Positions 23,352 to 31,530 of a stretch of 64,000 nt of DNA are shown in pieces (position 1 is the stretch's first letter; every line of letters starts with the position of its first letter). Where the stretch lies: positions 496,001 through 560,000 of the forward strand of contig NZ_JAJSAP010000002.1 of the NCBI RefSeq assembly GCF_021729035.1, in the 5' to 3' direction. Under the pieces are notes generated by a model. It did no database searches. It saw only the letters and a list, made by a program, of their open reading frames with translations, and was not told the origin of the DNA. Source of the stretch: Microbulbifer sediminum. Lineage in GTDB: Bacteria; Pseudomonadota; Gammaproteobacteria; Pseudomonadales; Cellvibrionaceae. The translations under genes and the position numbers were made by a program.

Positions 23352-23744
23352 TCAATTTAGGACGCGATATCCGCGACCGCGCAGACAATTCCTGACAATG
23401 CGCCCTTCCTCGCTGTAGGAGCTGCCCACGCCGGAAACCCCACCCAGCAGGGCACCGGCGCCGGCGCCAGCTGCCGCCGCGCTACTGGAATCCCCGACAA
23501 TTGCGCCCAGGGCACCACCCAAAAGTGCCCCACCCGCAGCCCGGGTCACTCCACGGCGCCCGGCATCGGCTCGGGCGTAATAGGCCGTCGAACGACAATC
23601 CGCCAGGTCAAGCTGGTACTGACGCATATTTACACCATAAGTATCAATCACGACTCCGCCGGCCCCGGGAACCTGTTCCTGGGTAACACACCCAGCTGCC
23701 AGCATCGTGCTGAGCCCTACGGCAGAAAGAAATGCAGACTTCAT
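23352..23744 (-). CDS. Glycine-zipper lipoprotein
   Basis: A 130-residue lipoprotein (lipobox M-L-A-A-G-C19). The central part (about 70-110) is a glycine-zipper segment rich in Gly/Ala ('AAGGALLGGALGAIVGDSSS', 'GAGAGALLGGVSG') like that of the SlyB/17-kDa antigen-type proteins. Three further cysteines include 'IVRNCLRGRGYRVLN' at the end, a C-terminal motif common to these small envelope proteins. Likely an outer-membrane-associated envelope protein of unknown exact role. GAGGT precedes the ATG. It has its own terminator, so it is transcribed alone. Confidence 0.82.
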   Translation of the reverse strand: MKSAFLSAVGLSTMLAAGCVTQEQVPGAGGVVIDTYGVNMRQYQLDLADCRSTAYYARADAGRRGVTRAAGGALLGGALGAIVGDSSSAAAAGAGAGALLGGVSGVGSSYSEEGRIVRNCLRGRGYRVLN

Positions 23745-23991: not shown

Positions 23992-24696
23992 CTATTGGTA
24001 GAAGTAGTCAATACGCAGGCGCTGGCTCTCGCCACGGTCATCCAGAAGATTGACGATGCCTTCAAACCGCTGCAGCTGGCGCTGATCTGCTCCGTAAACG
24101 AGGTAGAGGTGTCCTGCGAACATCCGCAGCAGCGCCTGCGCCAGGTCTATCCGGAGGCACAGGTTTCCCTGGGCCTCGCCCTGGCACTCCGCCTTTCGCG
24201 CACGCAGGGTGACGGCACGGCCATGCAGGGGCGAGGCAAACTTGAACTCCACCGATTCCCCTGCCGAAAGCCGGTCCCAGTTGTTCCTGACAAATGGATC
24301 GAAACCGGCATCGATCACATCGATATCATTACCATCGACACTCTCGGTCTCCCAGCCTGAGTCCCGGCTCTCGCGGTAGCGCATTTCCCACTGGCCGTCC
24401 CGGCGACGAACAATACGCTCCTCACCATGGCGGTAATCGCGCTGGATTACTTCCGGCCGCGGTGTATTACGCGGCTCTTCGCCGGGGCGGGTAACAAGGG
24501 ACTTTTCCGCAATGCGATGCCCGCGGGGATTGTAGTAGAGAACCCGGGTCCGGTTATTCCGGGTCGGGAGGTAGTACTCGCAGTAGACGAGCTGATCGCG
24601 GCCGGGCTCGCGGGCCAGGCCGATGGCCTGTACCTCGCCCTGGTAACCGCAGTGCGCCGCCGCATTCACAGCCATTGCCGCCAACAGACTAAGCAT
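23992..24696 (-). CDS. Exported protein of unknown function, last gene of the lipid cluster
   Basis: A 234-residue protein with a short signal peptide (about 1-14, 'MLSLLAAMAVNAAA'). The body is polar and rich in Arg/Glu, with cysteines at 'HCGYQG', 'VYCEYY', 'KAECQG' and 'NLCLRID' that could form two disulfides in the periplasm. I do not recognise a family. Its ATG overlaps the end of the DUF2878 gene by 8 bases, with GAGG in the upstream gene, so it is translationally coupled and belongs to the sigma/ChrR-linked cluster. It should act in the envelope alongside the lipid enzymes, but no reaction can be proposed. Confidence 0.8.
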   Translation of the reverse strand: MLSLLAAMAVNAAAHCGYQGEVQAIGLAREPGRDQLVYCEYYLPTRNNRTRVLYYNPRGHRIAEKSLVTRPGEEPRNTPRPEVIQRDYRHGEERIVRRRDGQWEMRYRESRDSGWETESVDGNDIDVIDAGFDPFVRNNWDRLSAGESVEFKFASPLHGRAVTLRARKAECQGEAQGNLCLRIDLAQALLRMFAGHLYLVYGADQRQLQRFEGIVNLLDDRGESQRLRIDYFYQ

Positions 24697-25204
24697 AACC
24701 AGCCTCGGTAAAAATCCGGCGCCGCGATAACCAGGTGGTAAACGGCAGGAACAGTACCCAGATACATACGAGGACGAGCACAGGAACGATCACCGGCTGG
24801 CTGAACTCCACCGTGCCATTGAGCCAGGCGCCGGTCCAGTAGCTGAACGGCCCAAATATGCCGCCAAGTACTGCCGCCAGCCATCCGCTCTTCTGCAGGA
24901 AAAACATGCTGTACCGGAGCGCCGTGGCAAAGTTTACCCAAAGTAATAATAGCCAGGCAGGAGGAAAGGGTGAGCCATTATCATTGCTCAGCAGGCCACT
25001 GGAGAATACCAGCGTATCCACACTGGCTCCGCAGAGCCAGACAGTGGCAACCCAGAGCCATTCATTGCGCTTGTTGGCAACGATTCGGAGGTGAAAAAAG
25101 AGATTGGCCGCGGTGAACGCAACAATCACCCAGACACTGTTCACCAGCACACACAGTGGCCACGCAACGTCGAACAGCACGGCGTTCGCAATAATCCGCC
25201 ACAT
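24689..25204 (-). CDS. DUF2878 family membrane protein
   Basis: A 171-residue inner-membrane protein with about five to six helices and the DUF2878 pattern ('IIANAVLFDVAWPLCVL', 'GASVDTLVFSSGLL', 'GPFSYWTGAWL'). The family is repeatedly found next to cyclopropane-synthase-like and DUF1365 genes; its function is not known. I chose the ATG at 25204 because GGGAG precedes it; the open frame reaches a TTG at 25228. The stop of the upstream methyltransferase gene is 24 bp away, and the next gene overlaps by 8 bp. Confidence 0.85.
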   Translation of the reverse strand: MWRIIANAVLFDVAWPLCVLVNSVWVIVAFTAANLFFHLRIVANKRNEWLWVATVWLCGASVDTLVFSSGLLSNDNGSPFPPAWLLLLWVNFATALRYSMFFLQKSGWLAAVLGGIFGPFSYWTGAWLNGTVEFSQPVIVPVLVLVCIWVLFLPFTTWLSRRRIFTEAGYA

Positions 25205-25228
25205 GGCCAGCTCCCGTGCGCTGCGCAA

Positions 25229-26494
25229 TCAGCCCGGTAGCGCCCGGCAGCGCGGCTTGGCAAAGACAAACTGGGCCGTGCTGATCACGCGCTCGAGGAA
25301 GCCTCCTTCGCAGTAACAGAGGTAAAAATCCCACATACGGATAAAACGATTGTCAAAGCCCTGGCGGCGAACCTCATCGATACGGGCGAAGAAAGCATCG
25401 CGCCAGGCACTCAGCGTGCGCGCGTAATGAAAGGTAATGTCCTCAAGGCCGACAACCTGCATATCCGTATTCTCAGCGATATGATCCGCCACCACCTGGT
25501 TGGACGGCAGGCAGCCACCGGGGAAGATATAACGCTGGATAAAATCCACCTGCTTGCGATAACGATGGTATCGCTGGTCCTGGATTGTAATGGCCTGCAT
25601 CACCATCAACCCGTCTTCTTTCAGCAGGCGACTGCAACGGGAGAAGAAATCCTTGTGATACTCATGGCCCACAGCCTCGATCATCTCGATGGAAACCAAC
25701 TTGTCGTACTGCCCCTCTAGGTCTCGATAATCCTTCAGCAGCAACGTGACCTGTTCCTGCAGTCCCTCGCGCTCCACCCAGGCGCGCGCATGCTCGTACT
25801 GTTCCCTGGAGATGGTTGTGGTGGTCACGCGGCACCCATAGTTCTTGGCCGCATAGACCGCCATGCCACCCCAGCCAGTGCCGATCTCGAGCAGGTGGTC
25901 ACCCTCATGGAGCTGCAACTTGTTACAGATTCTTTCCAGCTTGTTCAGGGATGCCTCTTCAAGGCTCGCTGATGAAGACGGAAACACCGCCGATGAGTAC
26001 AGCATGGTGGGATCGAGAAACAGCTTGAAGAAATCATTGCCAAGATCGTAGTGGGCGGAGATATTCTTACGAGAGCCGGCGCGGGTATTGGCATTGAAGC
26101 GGTGCAGGATACGCAACGCAAATTTCTGCAGGAAACTCCAGCGGGAATCCATATTCTCCAGCATGGCCATGTTGTTGACCATCAACCGGATAACATCCAC
26201 CAGGCAGGGAGAGGTCCAGGCACCCTGCATATAGGCCTCACCCGACCCGATGGTGCCATTGAAGAGTACGTGTGTATACGTCACCTCATCCTGGACGCAG
26301 ATCCGGGCGCAAACCTCCGCGTCCTGCTCCGCCTCGCCAAAACGGTATATTTCACCGCCCTCTTCCACCACCAGGTGTCCGCGCTTGATCCCAGCGAGCT
26401 TGCCCAGCACCAGCCTCCGGGCGAGCTGCGTGGTCCAGTTCGACTGTGCGGAGTCTTCAATTGTACCGGGCTGGCCCGCTTCAACAGATTTCAT
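25229..26494 (-). CDS. Cyclopropane-fatty-acyl-phospholipid synthase-like SAM methyltransferase
   Basis: A 421-residue enzyme of the CFA synthase family, which modifies double bonds of membrane phospholipid acyl chains with a methylene or methyl group from S-adenosylmethionine. 'ISAHYDLGNDFFKLFLDPTMLYSSAVF' is the family hallmark, and the SAM motif I is 'LLEIGTGWGGMAVYA'. 'IEAVGHEYHKDFFSRCSRLLKEDG' and 'FIQRYIFPGGCLPS' follow in order. The start is the ATG at 26494, which overlaps the stop of the DUF1365 gene (ATGA) and follows AGGAG; the longer frame to 26584 lies inside that gene. The cluster contains oxidoreductases, so the product may be a further-modified lipid rather than plain cyclopropane (inference). 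Confidence 0.93.
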   Translation of the reverse strand: MKSVEAGQPGTIEDSAQSNWTTQLARRLVLGKLAGIKRGHLVVEEGGEIYRFGEAEQDAEVCARICVQDEVTYTHVLFNGTIGSGEAYMQGAWTSPCLVDVIRLMVNNMAMLENMDSRWSFLQKFALRILHRFNANTRAGSRKNISAHYDLGNDFFKLFLDPTMLYSSAVFPSSSASLEEASLNKLERICNKLQLHEGDHLLEIGTGWGGMAVYAAKNYGCRVTTTTISREQYEHARAWVEREGLQEQVTLLLKDYRDLEGQYDKLVSIEMIEAVGHEYHKDFFSRCSRLLKEDGLMVMQAITIQDQRYHRYRKQVDFIQRYIFPGGCLPSNQVVADHIAENTDMQVVGLEDITFHYARTLSAWRDAFFARIDEVRRQGFDNRFIRMWDFYLCYCEGGFLERVISTAQFVFAKPRCRALPG

Positions 26495-27282
26495 TGGCGT
26501 TTTTCTCCTGCATCGGCCCGAACGCTGCGATTCGGATGGGTGAATATCGGCACGCGCTTGAGCCACAACCTTAATGCCTGCCAATAAATAGCAGTGATGA
26601 CCTTTACGGTCATCAGTGGATATTGGATTAGCGTGAGATTCAACGTGCGCGGGGAGAGCTCCTCGCGTTTAAGGCTCAGGGTGGCGTCAAAAACAGGCTT
26701 ACCGTCCTGCAGGTTCTGCAGGAAAATCGACAGGCGCTCCCCCGGGGTGACACTGCGCCAGCGGTATGCCTGCTCCATAGGCATGAACGGGGAGACATGA
26801 AAATCCTTGTCGAACTCCCCCTTCTGGACACTCGATGACCTGCCGCGTATCCCCCCGTCGCGACAATCAAGTACATAACTGTGACGCTCATTCCAGGGCG
26901 TGTTGTGCACATCCAGCATCACCCATTGAACATCCTTGCCACTGCGATCAAAACAGTAATAAGTACTGATCGGGTTCATGTTGTACCCAAAATACCGCCA
27001 GTTGGCTAACACCCGCACTGGCCCCTGCGGACGCTCGCCGGTTTCCTCCTGCACACGACGACGCACCGCCTCGTCGACACCGAGGGCCGGATCACCGAAG
27101 AAGTCCTCACGCCGGAAACGTGCCGGTGCCCACCGACTGCGCGACCACAACGGGCTCATGGCCAGCACCTGCTCCAGCTCTCCCAGGTCGAGATATACCA
27201 TGAAAACACGGTAGCGAAACCGGTGCCCCCGCGGTGCGAGGCGACGGTGCTGCACCCAGCCACTGTAGATGGCACTCTCCAT
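26491..27282 (-). CDS. DUF1365 family protein
   Basis: A 263-residue DUF1365 protein: 'SAIYSGWVQHRRLAPRGHRFRYRVFMVYLDL' at the N terminus and 'RYFGYNMNPISTYYCFDRSG' in the middle are diagnostic. The family's biochemical role is not established, but it is strongly linked to CFA-like methyltransferases and FAD oxidoreductases. The ATG at 27282 overlaps the stop of the upstream FAD oxidoreductase (TGATG), and its stop overlaps the methyltransferase start (ATGA), so the three genes are tightly coupled. Confidence 0.9.
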   Translation of the reverse strand: MESAIYSGWVQHRRLAPRGHRFRYRVFMVYLDLGELEQVLAMSPLWSRSRWAPARFRREDFFGDPALGVDEAVRRRVQEETGERPQGPVRVLANWRYFGYNMNPISTYYCFDRSGKDVQWVMLDVHNTPWNERHSYVLDCRDGGIRGRSSSVQKGEFDKDFHVSPFMPMEQAYRWRSVTPGERLSIFLQNLQDGKPVFDATLSLKREELSPRTLNLTLIQYPLMTVKVITAIYWQALRLWLKRVPIFTHPNRSVRADAGEKRQ

Positions 27283-28532
27283 CAGAGCGTTACCCCGAAC
27301 GCCTCGGCAACCCGCATAGCACTGTTCACGCCATCCTCATGAAAGCCGTTATCCCAGTAAGCACCGCAGTACCAGGTGTGATTCTGCCCATTGATCGACT
27401 CCCACTGTTTCTGTGCCTGCATCCCCGCCACCGAAAACTGGGGGTGGGCGTATTCGAACCGCCGGATCACCTTCTCCGGATTGATCTTATCGTCCGCATT
27501 CAGGGTGACACAATAAGTCTGCTCACACTCCAGTCGCTGCAGGATATTCATGTTGTAAGTCAGCACAGGCAGCCTGTCCTTGTCCCCCTGGAGGCGATAA
27601 TTCCAGCTGGCCCAGCTCCGTTGACGCCGGGGCAACAGGTCGGTGTCGGTATGTAACACCACCGAATTCTCGGCGTACGGAATGGCTCCCAGAACATCGC
27701 GCTCTGCGTGCGTCGGTGTATCCAGGCATGCCAGGGCCTGGTCGGAATGGCAGGCCAGGACCACGGCATCAAAATCCAGGGCCTCACCAGCGGCCGTGTG
27801 CACGGTCACTCCATCAGAGCCACGAATGACACTGGCAACTGGCGTGGAGAGCCGGATTCGCCCGGTAAACTCCTTCACCATGGGCCCGATATATTTCCGC
27901 GAGCCCCCCTTGATCACCCGCCACTGGGGCCGGTTGGTGATGTTCAGCAGGCCGTGATTGAAAAAGAAGCGCACGAAAAAACTGACAGAGAAATCCAGCA
28001 TCTGTGACATGCTGGCCGACCAGATGGCCGATCCCATCGGTACCAGGTAGCGGTCGGTGAATTCGGCAGAGTAGCCGTTGTCCCGCAGATACTGCCCCAG
28101 GGTTAATTGGTCGCCGAGCCTGCCGTCGCGCCAGTCGCGCACAGCTGCGCGATTGAAGCGCACAATATCCCGCAGCATTCGCCAGTGCCCAGCACTGAAC
28201 AGGTTACGGCGCTGGGCGAACAGGCTGTCGAGGTTGTTGCCAGCGTACTCAAAAGACTCCCGGTCGGAACAGACGCTGAAGCCCATGTCCGTGGGCTGGG
28301 AATCCACGCCCAACCGCTCCATCAACTTGATGAAGTTGGGGTAAGTCCAGTCGTTGAAAACGATAAAGCCGGTATCGATGGCCAGGCGATGATCGCCCTC
28401 ATCGACATCCACGGTGGCGGTATGCCCTCCCAGGCGATCCGCAGCCTCAAACAGGGTGATGTCGTGCCTCTTGTTCAACAGGTAGGCGGCGGTCAGGCCG
28501 GAAATACCGCTGCCTACAATCGCTATGCGCAT
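27282..28532 (-). CDS. FAD-dependent amine-oxidase-fold oxidoreductase (COG2907-like)
   Basis: A 416-residue flavoprotein. It opens with the dinucleotide-binding motif 'MRIAIVGSGISGLTAAYLLNKRHDITLFEAADRLGGHT' and ends with the typical 'WYCGAYWDNGFHEDGVNSAMRVAEAF'. It resembles desaturase/isomerase-type amine-oxidase-fold enzymes acting on hydrophobic substrates. The ATG at 28532 is chosen because AAGGA lies upstream; the longer frame to 28604 adds a non-family head. It is separated from the SDR gene by about 158 bp, so a secondary promoter there is possible. The probable role is redox modification of a fatty acyl chain together with the methyltransferase (inference). Confidence 0.88.
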   Translation of the reverse strand: MRIAIVGSGISGLTAAYLLNKRHDITLFEAADRLGGHTATVDVDEGDHRLAIDTGFIVFNDWTYPNFIKLMERLGVDSQPTDMGFSVCSDRESFEYAGNNLDSLFAQRRNLFSAGHWRMLRDIVRFNRAAVRDWRDGRLGDQLTLGQYLRDNGYSAEFTDRYLVPMGSAIWSASMSQMLDFSVSFFVRFFFNHGLLNITNRPQWRVIKGGSRKYIGPMVKEFTGRIRLSTPVASVIRGSDGVTVHTAAGEALDFDAVVLACHSDQALACLDTPTHAERDVLGAIPYAENSVVLHTDTDLLPRRQRSWASWNYRLQGDKDRLPVLTYNMNILQRLECEQTYCVTLNADDKINPEKVIRRFEYAHPQFSVAGMQAQKQWESINGQNHTWYCGAYWDNGFHEDGVNSAMRVAEAFGVTL

Positions 28533-28690: not shown

Positions 28691-29470
28691 TCACTGCCGC
28701 GCCGCCAGGGATCTGATCCGGGTCATCCTGGGCGCGGAAAAACGAAACCAGAGGGAACGGAAAAAGCCGAAAAACCGCAGTGGCCAACTGAGCCGCCAGG
28801 GAAAATCGATTGTGCTCTTGCCACGCAACAGGCCCCTCTCGATGCACTCAGCAGCTTCTTCCGGGGTCATCAGGAAAGGCATCTCGAAATCATTGCGCTC
28901 TGTCAGCGGTGTATCGATAAACCCCGGACGGATATGCACCACTTTCAGGCAGGTGCGGGACAGGTCTGCACGCACGGCGTCGAGGAAATAACCCAGCGCC
29001 GCCTTTGAAGCGCCATAGGCTTCGGCCCGGGGAAAACCAACCACTGACGACAGGCTCCCGACCGCGGCGAAGACCGGCGCCTTGCTCCGGGCGAGCAACG
29101 GCAGGGCCTGACGGAGGGTGTTGATAGCCCCAAAAAAATTGGCGTCGAAAACCCGCCGGTAGCTGGCGCTGTCGAGCCGCAGGCCATCGTCGTATTCGCA
29201 AGTGCCGGCACACGCCACCACCATATCCAGGTGATCGGTGAGCTCTGCCAGCTCTGCGCCCACACGGTCCATACCCTCATCGTCGCTCACGTCACAGGAA
29301 AGCAGGCGAATCCGCGTGGGTGCTGCCTTCTGAACCTCCGACAGGGACTCCTTGCCGCGACTGCTGATGATGACAAAGTTGTTATGTTCCGCCAGGCGCC
29401 GGGCCAGGGCCTCACCGATTCCGGAGCTGGCGCCGGTAATCCAGACAGTTTTCCCTTCTATTGCGGTCAA
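28691..29470 (-). CDS. Short-chain dehydrogenase/reductase
   Basis: A 259-residue classical SDR. The NAD(P) motif is T12-G-A-S-S-G-I-G19, and the catalytic residues are Ser in 'AVGSLSSVVGFP' and Y152-G-A-S-K156. The C-terminal 30 residues ('LSWPLRFFGFFRSLWFRFSAPRM') are hydrophobic and basic and could dock the enzyme at the membrane, fitting a lipid substrate. It starts 21 bp downstream of the SnoaL-like gene, in the same transcription unit driven by the promoter at 29951-29979. Confidence 0.9.
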   Translation of the reverse strand: MTAIEGKTVWITGASSGIGEALARRLAEHNNFVIISSRGKESLSEVQKAAPTRIRLLSCDVSDDEGMDRVGAELAELTDHLDMVVACAGTCEYDDGLRLDSASYRRVFDANFFGAINTLRQALPLLARSKAPVFAAVGSLSSVVGFPRAEAYGASKAALGYFLDAVRADLSRTCLKVVHIRPGFIDTPLTERNDFEMPFLMTPEEAAECIERGLLRGKSTIDFPWRLSWPLRFFGFFRSLWFRFSAPRMTRIRSLAARQ

Positions 29471-29491: not shown

Positions 29492-29926
29492 TCAGCCGGC
29501 CGCACGGGCCATGCGCGCCTTGATGCCTCGCACAAGGGCACCAACTACGGGCACACGCTCGTACACCATGGCGCCGACATCGTAAAAGTCTTCGTGGTAG
29601 TGGATACGCTTACCGAAACGCAACAGGCTGCAGCCCCGTAATTGCAGCGGCCGCCCACCATTCAGCGAGTGGTGTGCGTAATGCATCACCCACGGCAGGC
29701 AGGCACTATCATCGGCATCGACAACCTGCCCGAACTCGAACCGGCAGCTCTTGAGCCCCCGGCTCATACCGTCGAAATACGCCTGCAGTGCCTCCAGTCC
29801 CTCCACCCGGTGTATGGGATCACAGAACACGACCGAAGGGTCATAGATCTGGCCCAGATCTCCTGTATCCGCCTCGAGAAAGTCCCGGTAAAACGACTGC
29901 AGCTCCCCGATCAGGCCGTTCATGCT
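29492..29926 (-). CDS. SnoaL/NTF2-like fold protein, first gene of the sigma-linked cluster
   Basis: A 144-residue single-domain protein of the SnoaL-like/NTF2 fold ('LQSFYRDFLEADTGDLGQIYDPSVVFCDPIHRVEGLEALQAYFDGM'). Such proteins bind hydrophobic ligands or act as cyclases or isomerases; the substrate is not known. The ATG at 29926 is the only start compatible with the promoter at 29951-29979, since the GTG at 29968 lies inside the promoter itself. Spacing to a predicted transcription start near 29944 leaves a short leader. Confidence 0.82.
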   Translation of the reverse strand, partial: SMNGLIGELQSFYRDFLEADTGDLGQIYDPSVVFCDPIHRVEGLEALQAYFDGMSRGLKSCRFEFGQVVDADDSACLPWVMHYAHHSLNGGRPLQLRGCSLLRFGKRIHYHEDFYDVGAMVYERVPVVGALVRGIKARMARAAG

Positions 29927-29950: not shown

Positions 29951-29979
29951 TAGTACGCCGATGGCCACTTATCGGATCA
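29951..29979 (-). promoter_or_regulatory. ECF-sigma-type promoter for the lipid cluster
   Basis: On the minus strand TGATCC (29979-29974) is followed after 16 bases by CGTACTA (29957-29951). This matches the divergent promoter at 30026-30054 in both elements and spacing. The -35 TGATC element is the one known for ChrR-linked sigma factors. Confidence 0.7.
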
Positions 29980-30025
29980 TCACCGAACTGATAGCCGATT
30001 TAAACGGAAATTCCCATATAAACGG

Positions 30026-30054
30026 TGATCCACCCGCCTCCACCCCACGTATCC
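30026..30054 (+). promoter_or_regulatory. ECF-sigma-type promoter for the sigma/chrR operon (autoregulation)
   Basis: TGATCC (30026-30031), 16 bases, then CGTATCC (30048-30054). The same elements and spacing occur on the other strand at 29951-29979. Transcription would start near 30061, 24 bases before the ATG at 30085, so the upstream GTG at 30025 cannot be the start. Confidence 0.7.
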
Positions 30055-30084: not shown

Positions 30085-30720
30085 ATGGCTCTAGCAACAC
30101 GGAAAGACACCAACACCGGAACCACTGTGCAGCAGACCCAGAATCGCGATGATGACTGGAGCAAATTGCTTGTACTGGTCGGCACCCGCCAGGACCGATC
30201 AGCTTTCGAGCGCCTGTTCCATCATTACGCTCCCCTGATCAAGGGCTTCCACTACAGTCGCAGCGCCCAGGCTTTCTCCTCAGAGGCAGCCGACGAGCTG
30301 GTGCAGGAAGTCATGTTCCGGGTCTGGCGCAAGGCGGCCAGCTTTGACCCTTCCCGGGCATCGGCCAATACATGGATTTACACCATCATGCGTAATTGCC
30401 GGATCGACATGCTGCGCCGCAACAGCCGGCGGCAGGATGCGGATGGCTGTGATGTGGAAGTGGACGATATCTGGGACGAGTCGCCGGAAAGCCAGCCACT
30501 GCTGGTGCTGCAGCACAGGCGCAGCCAGAGGGATATCTCTGAAGGCCTGCGCAGTCTCCCGGCCGAGCAGAGTCACGTGCTGGAGAAGGCCTATATGGAA
30601 GGCAAGTCTCACAGTGAAATTTCCACTGAACTGGGACTACCGTTGGGTACGGTCAAATCCCGCGTAAGACTGGCTTTAAAGAAGCTTGAAGCGATCTTGA
30701 GCAAACAGGGTGCATCATGA
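30085..30720 (+). CDS. ECF RNA polymerase sigma factor (ChrR-linked, ECF11-like)
   Basis: A 211-residue sigma factor. Region 2 spans about 40-105 ('FERLFHHYAPLIKGFHYSRSAQAF', 'ELVQEVMFRVWRKAASFDPSRASANTWIYTIMRNCRIDMLRR') and region 4 about 150-205 ('LPAEQSHVLEKAYMEGKSHSEISTELGLPLGTVKSRVRLALKKLE'). The anti-sigma gene overlaps its stop (ATGA). The architecture and partner match the RpoE-ChrR pair of Rhodobacter sphaeroides, which is released by singlet oxygen. It probably directs transcription of its own operon and of the lipid cluster. The ATG at 30085 is chosen over a GTG at 30025 on promoter grounds. Confidence 0.92.
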   Translation: MALATRKDTNTGTTVQQTQNRDDDWSKLLVLVGTRQDRSAFERLFHHYAPLIKGFHYSRSAQAFSSEAADELVQEVMFRVWRKAASFDPSRASANTWIYTIMRNCRIDMLRRNSRRQDADGCDVEVDDIWDESPESQPLLVLQHRRSQRDISEGLRSLPAEQSHVLEKAYMEGKSHSEISTELGLPLGTVKSRVRLALKKLEAILSKQGAS

Positions 30721-31424
30721 TTCGACACCATCCCGACAACAACCTGCTGGTTGAGTACGCCTCCGGCAGCCTGCCCTGGGCCATGAGCCTGGCAGTGTCA
30801 GCGCATCTGCAGCTGTGTCCGCAGTGCCGGAGGGAGAACGAGCACCTGAACCATATTGGCGGCGGCCTGCTGGAAGGGTGCGAACCCCAGGAAACGACAG
30901 GCGATGCCCTGGATCGACTGATGCAGCGCATCGATGCCGAGCCGACTGCCGGTGGCGCCACGGGGCCCGAGCGGGCACCAGAGTCGCCAAAAAGCCGCTC
31001 ACGCAATACCCGGGATGATCGCGACCCGGCCCTGGCGCGCCTGCCCCGGGTAATCCGCAAGCTGATTGGCGACAACCGACCGCTGAAATGGCGCCGCGTG
31101 TCCCCGTCCCTGAAGACCACACGGCTAACGACCGGGCAGGACCGCTATGAAGTAGCGTTCCAGCGTATCTGCCGCGGCGGTAAGGTGGTCGAACATGACC
31201 ACCGGGGGCGCGAGGTTACCCTGGTGTTGTACGGCAGCTTTTCCGATGCCGACGGCGTCTACACCCCCGGAGACTTCCTCCTGCGGGAGCCCGGCGAGGT
31301 ACACCAGCCCATTGCCACCCAGGACCAGGAATGCCTGTGCCTGTCGGTGGTGGAGGCTCCCGTGCACGTGAAGGGGCCCCTGGGCTGGCTGGTGAACCCA
31401 CTGCTTTCCTTCCGACCTGCATAA
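30717..31424 (+). CDS. chrR: ChrR-type zinc-binding anti-sigma factor
   Basis: A 235-residue anti-sigma factor. The N-terminal ZASD zinc site is intact: H5, H30, C34 and C37 ('SAHLQLCPQC'), in the pattern H-x24-H-xxx-C-xx-C of ChrR. The C-terminal half (about 130-215) is a cupin domain with 'VVEHDHRGREVTLVLYGSFSD' and 'REPGEVHQPIA'; in R. sphaeroides ChrR the cupin domain is needed for response to singlet oxygen. The linker (about 75-115) is charged and low in complexity. The ATG overlaps the sigma stop. By homology it holds the sigma factor inactive until the signal appears. Confidence 0.92.
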   Translation: MIRHHPDNNLLVEYASGSLPWAMSLAVSAHLQLCPQCRRENEHLNHIGGGLLEGCEPQETTGDALDRLMQRIDAEPTAGGATGPERAPESPKSRSRNTRDDRDPALARLPRVIRKLIGDNRPLKWRRVSPSLKTTRLTTGQDRYEVAFQRICRGGKVVEHDHRGREVTLVLYGSFSDADGVYTPGDFLLREPGEVHQPIATQDQECLCLSVVEAPVHVKGPLGWLVNPLLSFRPA

Positions 31425-31471
31425 TGGCCTGCGCCCGGGATTAAGCCATTTCCCGGGGGTAAAAAGGCAAC

Positions 31472-31507
31472 AAAAAGGGCGGGCCGCGCAAGCGGCCCGC
31501 CCTTTTC
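31472..31507. terminator. Bidirectional terminator between chrR and IOR
   Basis: AAAAGGGCGGGCCGC (31473-31487) pairs with GCGGCCCGCCCTTTT (31492-31506), loop GCAA. A runs before and T runs after make it functional in both directions, which fits the convergent chrR and indolepyruvate oxidoreductase genes. Confidence 0.88.
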
Positions 31508-31530
31508 ATTCCGCCGATCACTATTTCGCC

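Follow-up and report, generated by a model that had tools for sequence, protein, structure and literature searches.

The rpoE-chrR locus and its divergent gene cluster

The window, which here means the whole 64-kb stretch of Microbulbifer sediminum DNA that was analysed, contains a sigma factor operon read rightward and a cluster of seven genes read leftward, and Pfam and TIGR02451 matches bore out the sequence-only reading of these flanking genes. The first rightward gene (30085..30720, plus strand) encodes an ECF sigma factor of the R. sphaeroides RpoE type (ECF11) with Sigma70 r2 and r4 Pfam domains, its best PDB match being R. sphaeroides RpoE (2q1z, E 5e-35). It is followed by chrR (30717..31424, plus strand), whose start overlaps the sigma stop and whose product, an anti-sigma factor with a zinc anti-sigma domain and a cupin domain (Cupin_7), scored 171.5 bits against TIGR02451 (cut-off 124.5). 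All eight zinc ligands of ChrR (H-H-C-C and H-H-E-H), the first of which we take to be number 6, were kept in an alignment to the R. sphaeroides protein (2z2s). The ligand list for the latter follows PMC6852236. Sigma regions 2 and 4, the relationship to RpoE and the co-encoded ChrR are the features of an ECF11 sigma/ChrR pair, and at the sequence level the pair also has its own promoter motif, TGATCC-N16-CGTA. After chrR lies a terminator-like hairpin of 19 pairs (31469..31510, listed on the minus strand with a stem that also reads on the plus strand), identified in a terminator scan in which terminator-like sites were overall no commoner than in shuffles. In five relatives (L022, L023, L024, L037 and L046) the sigma and chrR genes were found in one reading frame with a single stop codon between them, an arrangement that probably reflects tight coupling and nothing more; a sigma-ChrR fusion was considered for these loci and rejected, their long open frames being two genes.

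The leftward cluster, all on the minus strand, begins with a gene for a SnoaL_2-like protein (29492..29923 in its ATG form; PF12680). Next come an RSP_1087-like short-chain dehydrogenase/reductase (SDR; 28691..29470; PF00106), sharing 32-33% identity with the SDR of two R. sphaeroides-like loci from Cereibacter johrii (L232) and Luteovulum azotoformans (L233), a FAD amine-oxidase family protein homologous to UfaD (RSP_1091; 27282..28532; PF01593), which aligns over 416 aa with the protein encoded beside rpoE in the same two loci at 38-39% identity, and a DUF1365 protein homologous to UfaO (RSP_1090; 26491..27282; PF07103), about 30% identical to its counterpart beside rpoE there. The fifth gene encodes a CMAS-family SAM methyltransferase (25229..26497; PF02353), assigned to the UfaM type by its residues and its position in a tree, as detailed below. 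The last two conserved genes encode a DUF2878 membrane protein (24689..25228; PF11086) and an exported protein (23992..24696), with homologues in 35 and 33, respectively, of 63 related loci. The exported protein matched nothing in Pfam at E up to 1, and AlphaFold2 run on the single sequence gave a poor model (mean pLDDT 47.9). Downstream of the cluster and on its strand is a glycine-zipper lipoprotein-like gene (23352-23744), with homologues in only the five same-genus loci of the 63, and beyond it a strong terminator-like hairpin (23278-23257).

Two divergent copies of the promoter motif

The divergent spacer between the SnoaL-like and sigma genes (29954-30051) holds one copy of the motif TGATCC-N16-CGTA on each of its strands. 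The plus-strand copy (30026..30051), a predicted ECF11-type promoter of rpoE-chrR with TGATCC as -35 element, a 16-bp spacer and CGTA as -10 element, and the minus-strand copy (29954..29979), a predicted promoter of the same type for the leftward cluster, are both exact matches. The pair had been noted from the sequence, one copy per strand between the two gene groups; both sites are real, each being 26 bp long, and the coordinates first given for them overshot each CGTA by 3 bases. No other exact match occurs in the 64 kb; dinucleotide shuffles of the window had a mean of 0.12 copies, and two copies were reached in 1 of 100 shuffles. A search of the genome, suggested alongside the sequence-only reading, yielded just 10 exact copies in 3.85 Mb (among 18 matches with a spacer of 15-17), five of them placed as promoters on our reading, including the window pair; with two of so few copies lying within a 100-bp spacer, the pair is not attributable to chance. 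The motif corresponds to the known promoter of the RpoE/ChrR sigma family, since the consensus has been published for several members: TGATCCnnnnnnnnnnnnnnnnCGTA for the autoregulated PSPTO_1043 of Pseudomonas syringae, as derived from ChIP-seq (PMC5507510), TGATCC/CGTA upstream of the mapped starts of Shewanella rpoE2 and pgpD (PMC4336711), and TGATC-N16-18-CGTAW for Vibrio cholerae (PMC5241685).

The position of the motif also bears on the start codons. The longest sigma frame starts at a GTG (30025) that abuts the -35 element, and the longest SnoaL frame at a GTG on the minus strand (29968) between -35 and -10, so that both codons would precede the transcript. Translation is therefore more likely to start at the next ATG in each frame, 30085 for the sigma gene and 29923 for the SnoaL-like gene; in alignments with its two nearest homologues, which are 93% and 88% identical, the sigma protein read from the 30085 ATG is matched from its first residue. 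The earlier proposal that the motif excludes both upstream GTG starts and gives shorter proteins is thus favoured by the GTG positions and by the sigma homologue alignment.

Conservation of the promoter pair

Of 81 family genomes sampled, 64 had a match to the sigma factor (E up to 1e-30), its own genome included, and the loci of the 63 relatives were analysed. Strict sites, defined for this count as TGATC-N17-CGTA, numbered 96 in the 500 bp preceding the sigma match where 1.15 were expected from the 32 strict sites in the remaining 1,754,328 strand-bases of the same loci, an enrichment of about 80-fold. In 48 of the 63 loci, a strict plus-strand site lay no more than 300 bp ahead of the sigma gene. 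Homologues of SnoaL, UfaD, UfaO and CMAS were all present in 51 loci, and in 49 they were divergently adjacent to the sigma gene as here; these 49 had a plus site in 35 cases, a minus site (within 500 bp) in 34, both in 24 and at least one in 45, leaving 14 without a strict plus site, 15 without a strict minus site and four with neither. The latter four carried a one-mismatch plus site with a spacer of 16 or 17. Where the full cluster was missing from the sequence examined, the plus site was kept in 11 of 12 loci; the twelfth (L080) is on a contig of 3.6 kb that breaks off inside the cluster. A second set of 27 loci from the genus had an exact plus-strand site in 10 cases, one with a single mismatch in nine and none in eight; for the minus-strand site, the corresponding numbers were 12, seven and eight. 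Both sites were exact in the two closest relatives (L321 and L322). Six nearer relatives (L323-L327 and L329) had no minus site, even with one mismatch, and control of the cluster may therefore have been lost or moved there. In the Cereibacter and Luteovulum loci the motif was present on both strands between the sigma gene and the UfaD homologue, which argues that the divergent layout is the ancestral, textbook one.

These data leave very little room for the alternative that the two copies are a coincidence or are sites of an unrelated regulator, which we consider extremely improbable. Exact copies do arise by chance or inside genes, as seen from the ORF context of the genome matches, where five of the 10 N16 copies fall within coding frames, and from several genus loci that carry a copy within the DUF1365 gene. 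Against this stand the enrichment directly upstream of the sigma gene and the agreement with the published consensus of the sigma family; a chance origin of the pair was ruled out by its genus- and family-wide enrichment. The published consensus, the conservation in the family and the pair in the Cereibacter and Luteovulum loci together support the proposal, already made from the window, that the ChrR-linked sigma factor would autoregulate rpoE-chrR and control the leftward cluster.

As a separate observation, motif copies at the DUF1365 gene position lay roughly 3.3-3.5 kb ahead of the sigma gene in L057-L061 and L073, and in several cases overlay a conserved coding stretch; exact genic copies need not be promoters.

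A probable furan fatty acid operon

The sequence-only reading had described a lipid-modification cluster. The lipid genes are indeed there, and Ufa homology, active-site residues and a tree allow a more specific description, namely that the cluster is probably a furan fatty acid operon (UfaD-UfaO-UfaM). UfaM, UfaD (RSP1091) and the DUF1365 protein UfaO (RSP1090) are reported to convert vaccenate to the 9M5 furan fatty acid (PMC7380195), and homologues of all three are found together in the cluster. The methyltransferase was compared across 50 of the 51 cluster CMAS frames (the short frame of L057 was left out), using as references the photolyase-adjacent CMAS of the two R. sphaeroides-like genomes, the second CMAS of the M. 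sediminum genome and two solved Cfa structures. At four positions of the active-site region, the three Cfa have G, H, H and C, against E, A, Q and S in the Cereibacter UfaM; all 50 cluster enzymes showed the G-to-E, H-to-A and H-to-Q changes, with S or A in place of the active-site C. Of the Cfa active-site set C139, E239, H266, I268 and Y317 (E. coli numbering), the window enzyme has S, E, Q, I and Y. In a 19-row tree in which the Lactobacillus row was long, the window CMAS and 13 relatives grouped with UfaM and apart from Cfa with 98/95 support. The assignment to UfaM rather than Cfa is of moderate strength, with three Cfa and two UfaM references.

The promoters and the sigma control could be as proposed and the cluster still make a cyclopropane or another modified fatty acid instead of furan fatty acids. 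Overall identity does not discriminate, as the window CMAS is 37-38% identical to UfaM and, nearly as high, 35% to E. coli Cfa. Cotton enzymes described as cyclopropane synthases share the C-to-S and H-to-Q changes (PMC3132707), and the Halomonas UfaM, encoded beside UfaD and UfaO, gave cyclic fatty acids as well as 11-methyloctadec-12-enoate when overexpressed in E. coli (PMC12089945). We nevertheless judge a cyclopropane product improbable in view of the residues shared by every cluster enzyme and unlike those of the three Cfa, the grouping with UfaM in the tree, the UfaD and UfaO homologues in the same cluster and the presence in the genome of a separate classical Cfa, its second CMAS, 52% identical to E. 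coli Cfa. On the furan fatty acid reading, the membrane response of these bacteria would probably be furan fatty acid synthesis and not cyclopropanation.

Candidate regulon members elsewhere in the genome

The 18 genome matches with a spacer of 15-17 were all inspected by ORF context. Apart from the window pair, the promoter-placed N16 copies precede DCC1-like, BLUF and ferrochelatase genes, as identified by Pfam. There were 21 further matches in which the sixth base was not C, and the two TGATCT ones examined lie before a gene for an MHYT-domain membrane protein and before an acyl-CoA dehydrogenase gene (L146). The DCC1-like, BLUF, ferrochelatase and MHYT sites were then followed in relatives across 48 genomes of the genus.

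The gene for a BLUF blue-light receptor (L144:4990-5556) has TGATCC-N16-CGTA just upstream of its likely ATG (C11:202001-202026). Of 17 orthologues in the genus, 14 carry a strict site, placed 55-75 bp ahead of the match, and the other three have a site with one mismatch. Outside the genus, a TGATC[CT] site occurred in three of 13 BLUF loci examined, from two other genera of the family (g14 and g29), with one more locus showing a one-mismatch site. The MHYT gene (L147:1658-2425) is preceded by TGATCT-N16-CGTA (C10:195459-195484), with a site in 14 of 28 genus loci examined, a set that includes some paralogues but neither half of a split copy. The ferrochelatase gene (L145:3485-4501), the only one matched in the genome, has its site between adk and hemH (C11:239176-239201); a site was kept in nine of 30 genus loci examined among 48 matches. 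In none of these three gene sets did a site appear on the opposite strand or in a control stretch further upstream, and the mean number in shuffles was 0.025 to 0.06. The sigma factor is absent from seven of the 48 genus genomes; in such genomes the site was found in none of five ferrochelatase loci and none of four MHYT loci, and all 17 BLUF genomes carry the sigma factor (hypergeometric 0.036). The fourth site precedes a row of DCC1-like, flavin-reductase-like and DUF4174 genes (L143:3617-5153) and was strict in three of seven DCC1-like orthologues, two others having one mismatch and two none, so that the DCC1-like gene is a possible regulon member.

Taken together, the motif distribution tips the balance, though not heavily, towards direct transcription of the BLUF gene, the gene for the MHYT sensor-like membrane protein and the only ferrochelatase gene by this sigma factor in the genus. 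A literature search, mostly outside subscription journals, brought up no BLUF or MHYT target of this sigma factor in the accessible text of PMC5241685, PMC3818230, PMC8307010 and PMC3320616, and neither did PMC8508746 as regards ChrR or the accessible literature on ChrR with ferrochelatase.

Proposed mechanism and inducing signal

The motif, its conservation, the gene identities and the UfaM-type residues were established in this analysis. On the reading that we prefer, with a probability of roughly 0.86, two divergent ECF11 promoters would be served by a ChrR-held sigma factor that responds to photo-oxidative stress and drives a furan fatty acid operon, with extra regulon sites elsewhere in the genome; sigma dependence, signal, transcription starts, operon structure and lipid product are what we infer. 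At rest, the zinc- and cupin-domain anti-sigma factor ChrR would keep the sigma factor inactive. Under photo-oxidative stress, with singlet oxygen or organic hydroperoxides as the probable agents, ChrR would be lost, and the freed sigma factor would transcribe rpoE-chrR, its own operon, rightward and the seven-gene operon leftward. The latter would probably convert membrane vaccenate to furan fatty acids, with UfaM methylating, UfaD desaturating and UfaO inserting the oxygen, and with auxiliary roles for the SnoaL, SDR, DUF2878 and exported proteins. Copies of this predicted promoter also lie ahead of the BLUF, MHYT and ferrochelatase genes in the genus.

The proposal of singlet oxygen as the signal comes by analogy from relatives, and the same sigma/anti-sigma machinery could instead answer naturally to organic peroxides, metals or nitrosative stress, a possibility that we hold to be the less likely one. 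Relatives are described as responding to tert-butyl hydroperoxide as well as to singlet oxygen (PMC5507510), hydrogen peroxide is reported to induce Shewanella rpoE2-chrR (PMC4336711), and an NCBIfam model for ChrR carries cadmium, peroxide and UV in its name, although the window ChrR scores below the cut-off of that model. Pointing away from such signals are the inferred regulon, with its blue-light receptor and ferrochelatase, and the conservation of the eight ChrR zinc ligands, although neither is proof of the signal.

Under a photo-oxidative signal, the locus provides a concrete stress regulon for a gammaproteobacterial family, with the genes of the sigma factor and the expected transcript starts. 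If the promoters of the BLUF, MHYT and ferrochelatase genes are real, damage sensing would be wired to light sensing in these bacteria. Protoporphyrin IX is an endogenous photosensitiser. Oxidative damage would then cause a light detector to be made and protoporphyrin IX to be removed, a feed-forward circuit from damage to light sensing in a bacterium not known here as phototrophic.

Comparison with known systems

The locus resembles the RpoE-ChrR system (ECF11) of Rhodobacter/Cereibacter sphaeroides in its sigma factor, its zinc/cupin anti-sigma factor and a divergent operon running from UfaD and UfaO to an SDR, with TGATCC-N16-CGTA on both strands of the spacer in the two close relatives of that system. 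Unlike there, where UfaM lies beside a photolyase gene, UfaM is encoded within the operon, and the SnoaL, DUF2878 and exported proteins had no match in the two R. sphaeroides-like loci. The published account of the core RpoE-ChrR regulon includes photolyase (PMC5507510). In contrast, both photolyase genes of the M. sediminum genome were rejected as regulon members, as no motif with up to one mismatch was found on the coding strand in about 3 kb upstream of either.

The contiguity of the UfaM, UfaD and UfaO homologues is shared with Halomonas sp. YLGW01 (PMC12089945) and consistent with the consecutive R. palustris loci RPA2569-2571 (PMC7380195); the present cluster differs from the published furan pathway in having four extra genes. 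The PSPTO_1043/1042 system of P. syringae has an identical consensus, is autoregulated and is described with a target operon that includes, as here, SDR, amine oxidase, DUF1365-type and cfa orthologues, but its lipid genes are at a separate locus with phrB (PMC5507510). The rpoE2-chrR system of Shewanella oneidensis likewise combines TGATCC/CGTA and mapped starts with a regulon containing cfa and hemH2, whereas its lipid operon also contains phrB (PMC4336711). The candidate light-receptor and ferrochelatase targets differ as well: in P. syringae the receptor target is the bphO-bphP (bacteriophytochrome) locus (PMC5507510), compared with the candidate BLUF gene in M. sediminum, and the S. oneidensis regulon includes the paralogue hemH2 (PMC4336711), compared with the only matched ferrochelatase gene in the present genome. 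The system and its promoter are thus already known in type, and the locus is a further member; what looks new, on comparative sequence evidence, is that a blue-light receptor and the only matched ferrochelatase appear to have been recruited to the regulon.
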